Shown: in pieces, positions 43,753 through 54,011 of the stretch
Numbering within the stretch: position 1 is the first letter of the stretch
Layout of the letters: every line of letters begins with the position of its first letter
Assembly (NCBI RefSeq): GCF_003987395.1
Contig: NZ_PIPT01000001.1
Location: forward strand, 124,001 to 188,000
DNA: 64,000 nucleotides
Direction: 5' to 3'
DNA from: Pseudidiomarina aquimaris
GTDB lineage: Bacteria; Pseudomonadota; Gammaproteobacteria; Enterobacterales; Alteromonadaceae
Program-made: the position numbers and the translations under genes
The notes under the pieces: model-generated
What the model was told of the DNA's origin: nothing
Databases searched by the model: none
The model's input: the letters and a program-made list of their open reading frames with translations, nothing else

Positions 43753-43781
43753 AAAAAGGGAGCTACGAGGAGTATATAGTA
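43753..43781 (+). repeat. Left element end: inverted motif pair
   Basis: AAAAAGGGAGC (43753-43763), nine unrelated bases, TATATAGTA (43773-43781). The right end has the reverse complement of both motifs with the same 9-nt gap (53983-54011). Confidence 0.75.
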
Positions 43782-43849
43782 AAAACAGTGTCTATTCGCA
43801 TGTGAGTGAGTGACAGGGCTTTACATATAAGGTCAGCGGCTTTTATTTC

Positions 43850-44230
43850 AAACGTACATACTGTGTATAATGGTATGTACGTTTTTTATTTGCGCCGAGT
43901 CCTTCGGCGGTAACCATTCATCCATGAATTTTTGTTCAGTGTTTAATTGCACCTTGTGAGTGCGACTTGTTCCAACAAGTCGGGAGAGATAGGAGTTTAC
44001 GTCATTGGTTTAGCAGGACGGGGATAGTTGTTTGCGGCAAGTACAGAGTTGTCGCCGCATCCATGCGGCTTTGACAGTTCAGTTGTTCACTCATTGATTC
44101 ACCTTCTTGATTAATTGCACTTAATTTACCACCACATTGCAACCGCTCCTTACCACGTGTTGCAAATTAATCGCACCACAACTTTCACGGAAAGTACCAC
44201 TTCGTCGGATCTCGGCTTTGTGCCATTAGC
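43850..44230. other. Palindrome-rich left part of the element, no gene
   Basis: No supported ORF lies between rplT and 44248. Four hairpins stand out: AAACGTACATA/TATGTACGTTT (43850-43884, 11 bp, followed by a T-run, so it may end rplT transcripts), CGCCGA/TCGGCG (43893-43909), CGACTTGTT/AACAAGTCG (43963-43982, loop CC) and GCCGCAT/ATGCGGC (44054-44069, loop CC). They may be recombinase sites, RNA structure or cassette remnants. Confidence 0.5.
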
Positions 44231-44233
44231 AGA

Positions 44234-44281
44234 CGTTAACGCCGCATTCAGCGGCTTGTCCGCTGCAATGCTTGGTTAGGC
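44234..44281 (-). repeat. attC-like site after the glycosyltransferase
   Basis: Read on the minus strand: outer GCCTAAC (44281-44275, fits RYYYAAC) and GTTAACG (44240-44234, GTT kept). Inside, GCATT and CAGCGG pair with CCGCTG and AATGC, leaving a single unpaired base at 44266. That offset base is a hallmark of integron attC sites. The gene's TGA stop lies inside it. Confidence 0.72.
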
Positions 44282-45552
44282 TTGCATACAAGGCTTTCAA
44301 TTATTGCAACAGCTTTCTCCACGCCGTGTTCTTCTCGCAAACTCGCTCCCAGCGCTGCGGCATGTTCGATTATAGTTTGATTTGTGGTTATCTCTTTAAT
44401 GCCTGCCGCAAGTCTTTCCACCGTCAGCTTTTTCAATGGGATAGGGGCGGCTCCGGCATTCAACGAGTGTAAGCGATTTCCCCAAAAGGGCTGATCGCCA
44501 AAGAACGGAATAACAATAGACGCTTTACCCGCCTGTAAGGCAGCAGCCGTAGTTCCTGCGCCTCCGTGATGCACAAGCCCGCACACACGAGGGAATAGCC
44601 ACGAATGAGGTACTTGGTCAACTGCAATAATACTCTCCGGCAATGCCTTAATTTCCATACCGCCCCAGCCTGTTGCCAGAATCCCCCGCACGCCTGCTCT
44701 TTGAAGTGCTTCAATGACGATATCTGTTAGCCGTTCAGGGTCACGTCCTATCATTGAGCCGAAACCAACATACACCGGCGGTGGACCTGTGTTCAAAAAG
44801 GCTGAAAGCTCTGGTGAGGGTTCATAATGGTCGTCATCTTCAGTATGCCAGTAACCACAGATACTAGCAGTTTGGGGCCAATCATCAGGTCGTGGTACGA
44901 CCAAACTGCTAAAGCCATGAATAACAGGAATGGGTGTGCCATCGGCGGTATGTAAGAGGCTAAAGCGCTTTGCTTTCGGCAGATGATGAGCCTTGCGCCA
45001 AGCTCGAGCGTACTTAGCCACTGACAACCCAATCAGCCGATTCACAAAGCTGTAGGAGAATTTGTTATACCATCCACCCAACCTCAGCCGCGGCAACATC
45101 ATGTTTGGATATTCAGCAGTAGGCACTAACCCTGGCACGACAAGCGCCATCAGAACTGGAACACCGAGCTTTTCGGAAATGTCGGGGGCGGTAAAGGCCT
45201 TGGGGTGAAACACAATAATATCTGGTTTGGACTGCTGTGCTGCGAGCCAACTCTCGTCCACGAGGGCACGCTGTATTGGGCCTATTTTCTTGAGTAAGCC
45301 TAGCGTGCGCTTCACAACTTGAAATATGTTGTTTGTGTCTTCCAATGCGCCTTGGTCTTCTGGGGCATCCAATAAAGTTAGCATGCCGTCGTTCATGAAT
45401 GCATAGTGCAGCCCAGCATGCTCGATAATCTTTCTAAATCGTGAGCTCGTGGCTAATGTGATACAGTGACCAGCTCGCTTTAAGCCTTGCCCCAATGCGA
45501 TATATGGCTGCACATCGCCTCGGGTTCCGTAGGTCAGTATAAGTATGTTCAT
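44248..45552 (-). CDS. GT1-family glycosyltransferase (UDP-sugar type) in a cassette
   Basis: A 434-residue GT-B glycosyltransferase. The N-terminal MNILILTYGTRGDVQPYIALG and the C-terminal HHGGAGTTAAALQAGKASIVIPFFGDQPFWG blocks are those of sterol/macrolide UDP-glycosyltransferases. Such enzymes glycosylate lipids, sterols or small toxic molecules. The start codon lies 6 nt after an attC R' site, and the last ten or so residues (PNQALQRTSR) are read from the next attC. This is the form of an integron gene cassette. Target unknown; modification of an antibiotic or a phage or toxin-related molecule is possible. Confidence 0.88.
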   Translation of the reverse strand: MNILILTYGTRGDVQPYIALGQGLKRAGHCITLATSSRFRKIIEHAGLHYAFMNDGMLTLLDAPEDQGALEDTNNIFQVVKRTLGLLKKIGPIQRALVDESWLAAQQSKPDIIVFHPKAFTAPDISEKLGVPVLMALVVPGLVPTAEYPNMMLPRLRLGGWYNKFSYSFVNRLIGLSVAKYARAWRKAHHLPKAKRFSLLHTADGTPIPVIHGFSSLVVPRPDDWPQTASICGYWHTEDDDHYEPSPELSAFLNTGPPPVYVGFGSMIGRDPERLTDIVIEALQRAGVRGILATGWGGMEIKALPESIIAVDQVPHSWLFPRVCGLVHHGGAGTTAAALQAGKASIVIPFFGDQPFWGNRLHSLNAGAAPIPLKKLTVERLAAGIKEITTNQTIIEHAAALGASLREEHGVEKAVAIIESLVCKPNQALQRTSR

Positions 45553-45558
45553 GTTTTA

Positions 45559-45645
45559 GCCTAACGCAAAGCACACGGGCGACGAGCCGCGCAGCGGGTT
45601 GGCGTCCCAGCGACCAACGGGAGCGAGTGATGCGCATTGTTAGCC
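45559..45645 (-). repeat. attC-like site between the VOC and glycosyltransferase genes
   Basis: On the minus strand: GGCTAAC (45645-45639), then ~70 bp with GTTGG/CCAAC pairing (45598-45602/45614-45618), then GTTAGGC (45565-45559), a perfect GTTRRRY core. The TAA stop of the VOC gene is part of the first motif; the next gene starts 6 nt after the second. The inner stem is less regular than at 44234. Confidence 0.65.
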
Positions 45646-52412: not shown

Positions 52413-53869
52413 TATTTACCTCGTAATTTCGGATGCTTGCCTGTGAAATACCCATGCGGGTCAATATCGTCAAAACCGTGCTCGACCAACTCATTCCAAT
52501 CTAGCGATTTTACTTTGGACTCAGGATTTGCCAGTTGTAGCGTGGCCTTGTTGAGTTCATTGGAGATTTCCTGCTGCCCTTTACCTGTGTAGGGAACTTG
52601 AGACTCCAGTGATTTATGGTGCATACATCGTCGTATCACCAACGGGTTAAGTCCTGAACGCTCTAAGCGTCTGCCATAGCTATGACGATGACCGTGCGGG
52701 TCTAACCCTTCCGATTTGTTTGGCTCTAAGCCAATGCGCCTTAATCCCGCCGCATAGCTTTGGTGAAACGCATTCAAAGTGTATGGGTTTCCAAGGGCGC
52801 TGTGATGGAATGAAATGAACGCATAGGGGTGATGGCAGTCAATACTGGCTCGATATTTTTGGTAATTCTTCCACAGTGACATAAAAACCTTGCCATAATC
52901 CGTTGGAAACCACTGAACTTGTATGTAGTTATCTCGATGGTCTACAACTCTTGTTTTCCAGCCAACGTATGCCGTGCCTTTCATTCGTTTGCGTGGTAAA
53001 CGAGCGTATTTTTCTTGTAAATAGGCTTCTCTGGTTTTTGTCCCTGAGCGACTACGCCAACCTTCGGGTGCTTTACCATCGATTTCGTTGTAAATTCGAA
53101 CTATCGCTTTTTCAGGGTCATACGGATCTTCAAATACATCAGTCACCCACAGCATAATAGCTTCGCTTTCACGTAAACCGCCACCGTGCATCAAGAGCAG
53201 CATAAGCTTATCTCTCAGCGCAACTCGTGGATCTTTTGCTCCGCCAATACCATCTTTATAGAATGATTCCCAATGCTTATCTGGGAATGCTAAAGCATCG
53301 TCTTCGGCTTTCGTCAATGGAGTGCGTCCTTTCATTGTGCGAGCTTTACGGATGGTTTTGTTAACGGTTTTATCTTCAATATGTCCAAGGAAGTCATGTT
53401 GGTTTTTTCGATACCAAGCAGCGTAATTAAGGCGTTGCTCATGAGGTGTGGCATCTCGCAAAGGGTTCATTGGCTCTGCGCCATGCTTGTTAGCCAGCCA
53501 ATCAGTAAATGCCGTTAATCGATGAATATGTTTATTGACGTTATCAGTTGAGCTTGGCACCCAGTACAAGCCAGAGGGATCTAAACCATCTTCACCGATG
53601 GTGCCTGTGTAAAGACGCTTAGCAAAGGTTTGGAATAGCATTTTAGGATCTTCAAATAATCCTTTGTTGGCTTCCATGTAATCCAAGAGCAAAGAAGTGG
53701 CTTGTATAAAACCATTCATTAAAGCATTACTAGCACCCTCAGCTTCCATCTTTAGCAAGTAATCGGTAACTGAACCAACTTCACCTTGTTCGGTGATCAA
53801 GATGGGGAGCTGACTTTTAATGCCAGTATTATCTTCTACGATAGTTGCTTTGACTTTAACCGATGACAA
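52412..53869 (-). CDS. gmtY: GMT recombinase GmtY (tyrosine recombinase)
   Basis: A 485-residue tyrosine recombinase. N-terminal SAM-like DNA-binding region (~50-180), then the catalytic domain: R233 in GGGLRESEA, H392-x-x-R395 in HGHRHS, and nucleophile Y427 in VPYTGKG after MHHKSLES. It is first gene of the operon, starting 114 nt inside the right-hand end motif. Position and size fit GmtY. GmtY and GmtZ together resemble the two-recombinase plan of Tn554. Confidence 0.92.
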   Translation of the reverse strand: MSSVKVKATIVEDNTGIKSQLPILITEQGEVGSVTDYLLKMEAEGASNALMNGFIQATSLLLDYMEANKGLFEDPKMLFQTFAKRLYTGTIGEDGLDPSGLYWVPSSTDNVNKHIHRLTAFTDWLANKHGAEPMNPLRDATPHEQRLNYAAWYRKNQHDFLGHIEDKTVNKTIRKARTMKGRTPLTKAEDDALAFPDKHWESFYKDGIGGAKDPRVALRDKLMLLLMHGGGLRESEAIMLWVTDVFEDPYDPEKAIVRIYNEIDGKAPEGWRSRSGTKTREAYLQEKYARLPRKRMKGTAYVGWKTRVVDHRDNYIQVQWFPTDYGKVFMSLWKNYQKYRASIDCHHPYAFISFHHSALGNPYTLNAFHQSYAAGLRRIGLEPNKSEGLDPHGHRHSYGRRLERSGLNPLVIRRCMHHKSLESQVPYTGKGQQEISNELNKATLQLANPESKVKSLDWNELVEHGFDDIDPHGYFTGKHPKLRGK

Positions 53870-53904
53870 GGTTCATTCCTTTATACACATTAAACATACA
53901 ATAC

Positions 53905-53932
53905 ACTAAAATGCTAAAGTGTTTGTTGTCAA
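53905..53932 (-). promoter_or_regulatory. Candidate promoter of the gmt operon
   Basis: On the minus strand TTGACA (53932-53927) is followed after 16 nt by TTTAGT (53910-53905). The -35 is perfect and the -10 weak. Nearby TGTGTAT/TGTATAT copies (53883-53990) could be recombinase-binding repeats overlapping it. Confidence 0.45.
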
Positions 53933-53937
53933 ATAAA

Positions 53938-53957
53938 AAGGCAGATTTCTCTGCCTT
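53938..53957 (-). terminator. Terminator shielding the gmt promoter
   Basis: AAGGCAGA (53938-53945) and TCTGCCTT (53950-53957), loop TTTC; read on the minus strand it is followed by TTTATTT. It lies upstream of the gmtY promoter and could stop outside transcription from entering the element. Confidence 0.6.
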
Positions 53958-53982
53958 AATACACAATATACATAGTTCAAGG

Positions 53983-54011
53983 TACTATATATAAATGATT
54001 GCTCCCTTTTT
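53983..54011 (-). repeat. Right element end: inverted motif pair
   Basis: TACTATATA (53983-53991), nine unrelated bases, GCTCCCTTTTT (54001-54011). It is the reverse complement of the left end motifs with equal spacing. GCTCCC followed by T's looks like the descending half of a terminator. Confidence 0.75.

Follow-up and report, generated by a model that had tools for sequence, protein, structure and literature searches.

We analysed a stretch of 64,000 nt from Pseudidiomarina aquimaris (contig NZ_PIPT01000001.1, positions 124,001 to 188,000 of the forward strand), which we call the window throughout. Between rplT and pheS it carries a Gamma-Mobile-Trio (GMT) element of ∼10.2 kb, which occupies 43770..53994 on the minus strand with ends accurate to ±1 bp. 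The window reads thrS, infC and rplT, followed by 10.2 kb of leftward genes and then by pheS, pheT and ihfA; the names of these host genes were assigned from their sequences and are presumably correct. A first-pass annotation had already described the gene order, the opposite orientation of the insert and the coordinates, and all of these proved correct when we re-read the window. It had taken 43753-54011 as the element. The location stands, but that span includes two arms of a host terminator. We conclude that the element very probably belongs to a lineage that integrates, in most of the cases seen, at intrinsic transcription terminators.

A profile check agreed with the GMT type proposed in the annotation. 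GmtY, a tyrosine recombinase (52412..53869, minus strand), scored 555.9 bits with its NCBIfam profile (cut-off 340), the large tyrosine recombinase GmtZ (49755..52412, minus strand) scored 1066.6 bits (cut-off 600) and GmtX (49078..49755, minus strand) scored 253.5 bits (cut-off 40). The three genes are adjacent and each exceeds its cut-off, which places the element among the GMT elements. The backbone further comprises a VPA1267 family protein (48641..49078, minus strand; 196.9 bits, NCBIfam cut-off 90) and an SF1B helicase (46479..48644, minus strand; assigned from profile matches and clade loci) that is RecD2-like, yet stays under the RecD2 cut-off (374.5 vs 500 bits). GmtY is found above the cut-off in a single copy in the whole 2.8-Mb genome. 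The residues R233, H392, R395, H417, H418 and Y427 of GmtY and H476, R479, H504, Y512 and Y513 of GmtZ were conserved in 19 or more of the 20 relatives aligned, and based on the family motif we presume that they are catalytic. Among 49 loci of the same clade, some of them truncated by contig ends, GmtZ was matched in all 49, GmtX in 48 (the exception, L049, is a short contig) and the helicase in 38 (in L145 over only 75 aa). Two elements, L052 and L059, consist of gmtY, gmtZ, gmtX, the VPA1267 gene, the helicase gene and the end region with no further genes. They terminate directly past the helicase, which gives ∼7.8 kb for a cargo-free element, and because they still carry the helicase we count it as backbone and not as cargo. 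Rfam models at their gathering scores gave no match within 40000-58000.

The host site was compared with that of 25 same-genus genomes, 24 of which yielded the rplT locus (G016, 86% complete, yielded none). In all 24 loci pheS starts 98-154 bp after rplT without any insert. The site is thus empty in the relatives, as expected for a mobile GMT island and not for stable core genome. The interval of each of the 24 relatives holds a hairpin with a T-run (judged by eye), mostly GAAAAAGGGAGC-(5-6 nt)-GCTCCCTTTTTTT. In the window both arms of this rplT terminator are present, one at each end of the element. The left arm (AAAAAGGGAGC; 43753..43763, plus strand), recognised by eye from the relatives, is parted from its partner, and the right arm with its T-run (GCTCCCTTTTTTT; 54001..54013, plus strand) was identified from the same relatives. 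The element therefore sits in the loop of the rplT intrinsic terminator. The terminal inverted repeat of the element does exist (29 nt), but it is largely the host terminator stem. The statement that the element splits an operon holds insofar as the element lies between rplT and pheS. It is nevertheless too strong, because the rplT unit is already terminated there, the sequence between the T-run and the start of pheS is nearly intact (one base differs from the closest relative, L007) and inward hairpins are found at both ends of the element.

Each arm is followed by six further bases before the element proper begins. At the gmtY-proximal junction these are ATGATT (53995..54000), probably the original terminator loop, and at the gmtY-distal junction TACGAG (43764..43769), which would have been carried in from a donor site. 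ATGATT is the loop in 3/24 same-genus relatives and TACGAG in 0/24. The two nearest relatives by PheS, however, have the loop GTCACT, and for this reason the polarity is not proven by the window alone.

We extended the comparison to related elements. Scanning with four GmtY sequences yielded 76 loci, and in an order-wide search GmtY was matched at E ≤ 1e-60 in 17 of 394 genomes, with 11 above the cut-off. The 34 elements that we used all end 115-139 nt upstream of gmtY, mostly past half a terminator. Distal ends were located within the locus or through motif searches, which resulted in 34 end pairs, and 33 of these reached a stem score of at least 8 (G-U pairs allowed). Many of the 34 elements are close kin and hence do not represent 34 independent events. 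A second restriction is that 14 of the 34 pairs are circular, because their distal end comes from a different contig or had been selected for its match. The fair count is therefore made up of the 21 same-contig pairs, i.e. 20 others plus L068 with the far end of its own contig. For these 21 elements, the window included, we removed the element and asked whether the flanks rejoin as a short-loop GC-rich dyad (score ≥ 7, ≥ 3 GC pairs). This was the case in 19/21, and in 16/21 the dyad was accompanied by an A/T run. Non-cognate flanks of the same set formed a dyad in 5.5% of the cases (n = 400; 20 pairs among L081-L087 were omitted). At 20,000 random host positions the rates were 0.12% for the dyad and 0.04% for the dyad with an A/T run, in a test that allowed less play on the far side; when the far spacer was drawn at random and the freedom made equal, we counted 29/20,000 dyads, and 5/20,000 with an A/T run.

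Several further points weigh against this reading. Non-cognate pairs attained the stem score of 8 in 283 of 1,122 combinations, since terminator halves resemble one another. For five of the 21 elements (the window, L052, L059, L081 and L087) the search that located them also required a stem match; their end motif was matched at 10-12 of 12 positions each. L070, whose stem is weak, and L068 fail the dyad test. L068 does so with the distal end of its own contig, and in the set of 34 pairs it had been re-paired with a different contig on the assumption of a swapped assembly. By the test used, L053 and the IncC element L146 form a dyad but lack an A/T run; L087 is a dyad that fails the run test, although its far arm ends in T6. 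An AAAA was present in the tested range of only 32 of the 47 proximal flanks with a recognised terminus (random: 5.5%). In Providencia rettgeri RB151 three copies with identical GmtY (L084-L086) lie in three terminators, and L084 and L086 match better by eye when their distal ends are swapped. Their far flanks look as they would after recombination or misassembly.

The coverage of the loci was uneven. We examined 52 loci besides the window and recognised no proximal end in six of them (L074, L089, L091, L092, L095 and L096), while the contigs of L051, L057, L075, L083 and L088 begin at the element end or up to 7 bases from it. The distal-motif matches L129, L141, L142, L143, L159 and L168 fit no element and some may be due to chance. 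L160-L162 share a genome with L083 and are unpaired because the L083 contig begins at the element end.

Natural empty sites allow a more direct view of the insertion. E. coli S1-CAM-01-A gave the sole near match to a GmtY-region probe among 5,426 genomes, 5,371 of which contain the crcB flank. Its element lies between crcB and cspE, and the empty site in two other E. coli reads AAAACCCGCT-GATTA-AGCGGGTTTT. On the IncC plasmid pJNE10-2-NDM the element lies between traF and a UvrD-like gene; two plasmids have the empty site AAGCGCCC-ATTTA-GGGCGCTT. For Shewanella ANA-3 the empty site of one relative is GCCGCC-TCAGTTA-GGCGGC. Two comparisons for the proximal side only came from an IncHI1B plasmid, whose stem has one mismatch, and from a Citrobacter plasmid type. 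The original loop is retained on the gmtY side in 5/5 comparisons, and the far side carries approximately six different bases in the 3/3 comparisons with both ends (E. coli, IncC and ANA-3). For the Providencia site we found related, non-identical empty sites in other genomes of the genus.

The accumulation of elements at terminators might also be the result of survival, if insertion were wide and only harmless intergenic insertions at terminators persisted. At 33 of the 34 sites an open frame of 70 aa or more terminates within 250 nt (a permissive criterion), that is, where an insertion is least harmful. However, in the empty-site comparisons the insertions hit the loop with a precision of one or two bases, and 19/21 same-contig cases lie in a dyad and not in other intergenic DNA. 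We regard such a bias as a very unlikely explanation. Still more improbable is an ordinary island of a phage or of an integrative and conjugative element, whose integrase uses a fixed attachment site in rplT-pheS. GmtY does contain the Pfam Phage_integrase domain, but no flanking direct repeat of the junctions was found among the 20 repeat families listed, and relatives with 80-98% identical GmtY adjoin other genes. A phage origin was considered separately and dropped, as GmtY was matched in 0/50,697 phage records (tblastn, 1e-5).

We next consider how such a site might be recognised. The core site has a layout of ∼11-6-11 bp, and a layout of 11-6-11 bp is usual for tyrosine recombinases. The arms are GC-rich beside the spacer with no obvious common sequence. 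There is an A-tract at approximately -8 to -12 and C is favoured at -1; over the 34 pairs, arm positions -9 to -11 carry 1.2-1.3 bits of information each and position -1 carries 0.84 bits (C, 74%). These figures support the alternative that the enzymes read a particular double-stranded sequence, namely the A-tract and the C by the spacer, which terminators merely happen to present. It concerns the mode of recognition and not the site, and we consider it possible, if rather unlikely: the GC stems have no obvious common sequence and yet the partner arm is complementary, and sites without the A-tract are in use (L053, L146, L070 and the CRISPR repeat of L091). Another option, that GmtY and GmtZ read the shape of the hairpin and not its sequence, is doubtful too. 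Any strong short-loop dyad would then be usable, such as terminators, CRISPR repeats and perhaps the tRNA D-arm in distant kin. The integron integrase, which acts on folded attC, offers an analogy. If the shape were read, the elements would form a transposon class that homes to DNA coding for RNA hairpins and replaces the terminator that it destroys.

Some end spacers are related to each other. They are reverse complements in L052 and, with a 1-bp shift, in L080, identical in L078 and the same palindrome in L065 and L068; only L052 among these is a same-contig pair. This is what we would expect if an element had re-entered its own site in either orientation.

Both ends of the window element carry an inward-facing terminator-like hairpin, found in a hairpin scan. 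The one at the distal end (43850..43887, plus strand) would block read-through from rplT. The one at the gmtY end (53938..53957, minus strand) consists of AAGGCAGA-loop-TCTGCCTT, followed by a T-run on the minus strand. In a simple scan of the 34 elements, 31 had an inward hairpin in the stretch from the terminus to gmtY, and 30 had one no further than 180 nt from the distal end. The same scan gave 0/300 for coding segments taken from within the elements. For random host segments the counts were 22/1000 (125 nt) and 41/1000 (180 nt), and for segments directly past open frames of at least 150 aa they were 42/223 and 44/223. As the hairpin sequences vary among element subgroups, it seems that the function of the hairpins is conserved rather than their sequence.

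Taken together these observations suggest the following mechanism, which we derive from sequence comparison. GmtY and GmtZ would be the enzymes that cut, and the terminator would serve them as the core site of recombination, made up of two inverted arms of ∼11-12 bp (GC stem plus A/T tract) flanking a spacer of ∼6 bp, the loop. A circular copy bearing approximately six donor bases would recombine in the terminator loop, so that the host loop would remain by the gmtY end and the donor bases would finish at the far end. The insertion would destroy the host terminator. The inward terminators at the two ends, provided that they work as such, would restore termination and shield the element, and the genes on either side (in the window, the essential units of rplT and pheS) would remain intact. 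Elements of this kind may still be active at present.

Intrinsic terminators occur in large numbers and tolerate insertions. Landing in a terminator and supplying termination anew would explain how the elements can reside harmlessly by essential genes and on conjugative plasmids, and with replacement terminators they may be able to settle without damage to the host. Targeting of terminators would also render the insertion sites predictable, and the lineage offers an example, open to testing, of a tyrosine recombinase whose choice of target is structure-like. The observation made in the first-pass annotation is confirmed, and its interpretation is partly supported.

In a quick tree all rows that we labelled with a terminator or hairpin target fall into one clade of 53 rows (SH-aLRT 100), 13 of which have no assigned target. 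More distant targets that we take, by eye, to be greB and a radical-SAM gene lie outside this clade. The GMT lineages concerned (L036-L040; L041, L042, L110 and L115) apparently use these as fixed coding sites. In L043, L044, L046 and L047, relatives of GmtY under the cut-off start next to a tRNA-like sequence that is interrupted, to judge by eye apparently within the D-arm. Two sister elements from Psychrobacter start in the palindrome of a CRISPR repeat (L091, 8947-9862; L092, 9787-9890; gmtY-proximal side only), with 15 intact repeats before the element in L091 (60-bp spacing) and one in L092. GmtY was also matched in 151 plasmid records, 39 of them at 95-99%. Among the plasmid copies L146, L147 and L149 have a GmtY ∼97% identical to that of the window and come from conjugative plasmids found in Enterobacteriaceae and Shewanella, among them an IncC NDM plasmid.

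The cargo region of the window element (44074..46468, minus strand) was delimited by comparison with L052 and L059, from which it is missing. Positions 43769-44073 and 46469-46532 of the window are contiguous in these two elements; in L146 the shared end region extends to 44225. The cargo is two integron gene cassettes, identified by box complementarity and attC homology. The first encodes a glycosyltransferase (44240..45564, minus strand; CDS 44248-45552) and starts with GTTAGGC, the exact complement of the attC box GCCTAAC. The second encodes a VOC/glyoxalase-fold protein (45565..46020, minus strand; CDS 45640-45984) and starts with GTTAGCC, the exact complement of the box GGCTAAC. Both cassettes thus have the exact 7-bp R''/R' complement of an integron cassette as read from the sequence. 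In the attC of the glycosyltransferase cassette 42-45 bp recur at 93-98% in four plasmids, with a fold z of -3.0. The attC between the two cassettes (45558..45647, minus strand), assigned by homology, is 89% identical over 82 bp to an attC of a Shewanella plasmid integron that has an integron integrase; its fold is no better than that of shuffled sequences. The same plasmid integron (L173) contains two genes for group II intron reverse transcriptases. A strict RYYYAAC/GTTRRRY scan missed both attC sites and flagged only a stretch inside gmtZ, and we used homology and box complementarity instead. A possible third attC at 46012-46202 was weak and is not claimed. For the integron integrase (TIGR02249) the host genome gave 4 matches, none above the cut-off.

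Antiphage or antibacterial genes are frequent in GMT cargo, although they do not define these elements. The annotation had expected defence or offence genes in the cargo, which our results do not bear out: neither the glycosyltransferase nor the VOC protein had a PADLOC match at E ≤ 0.01, a search that did not separately cover antibacterial cargo. We also claim no resistance function, given that the NCBIfam scores were far under the cut-offs (114.7 of 800 bits for the glycosyltransferase and 28.3 of 140 bits for the VOC protein). Neither protein was matched in any of the 49 clade loci. The cassettes do show that integron genes are able to become cargo of a GMT element.

GMT islands are mobile islands with variable cargo in Gammaproteobacteria (Mahata et al. 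2024, as cited in PMC12039261). The window element shares with them the GmtX, GmtY, GmtZ and VPA1267 families, the mobility and the variable cargo. The terminator-loop target, the end hairpins and the cassette cargo are absent from the descriptions of GMT islands in the parts of the citing papers considered, which do not include the original GMT paper. Another group with similar properties are the strand-biased circularizing integrative elements (SEs), for which a strand-biased circle without an empty site is a criterion and whose descriptions (PMC10214605, PMC9345347 and PMC10782965) mention two tyrosine recombinases with small proteins, imperfect terminal inverted repeats and a spacer of ∼6 bp. 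In SEs the host bases adjoin the recombinase-proximal end, and the far end holds the donor bases (PMC10214605, PMC10782965). We observed the same polarity for GMT elements by sequence comparison, with the attB bases recombinase-proximal and other bases at the far end in three elements and the proximal side alone in two more. In contrast to the GMT sites, the attB of SE-6945 and SE-6283 are reported without inverted repeats. We rejected membership in the SEs, as hhalign and blastp detected no similarity of the GMT proteins to the products of the SE core genes intA-tfp-intB-srap, for which SE-Pda04Ya311 served as the example. This was a weak test with one SE set represented by single sequences, whose genes were assigned by position in pAQU1. 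The GMT element resembles an SE at its junctions, which does not make it one. Tn554, with an ordinary and a large tyrosine recombinase and a small protein, and GInt, with several integrases, are similar in gene content according to PMC10214605 and PMC5385486; neither main text uses the word "terminator". The literature searched, which did not extend to the original GMT paper and so does not show absence from print, contained no description of terminator-loop targeting by elements with tyrosine recombinases.

Integrase-less integron cassettes, known as CALIN, likewise consist of cassettes with attC and no integrase above the cut-off, and here they are found inside a GMT element as its cargo. 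With regard to the target site, a likeness exists to group IIC introns, retroelements that insert next to intrinsic terminators. They differ from the GMT element in that another enzyme and another chemistry are used and in that they insert beside the stem and not in the loop.

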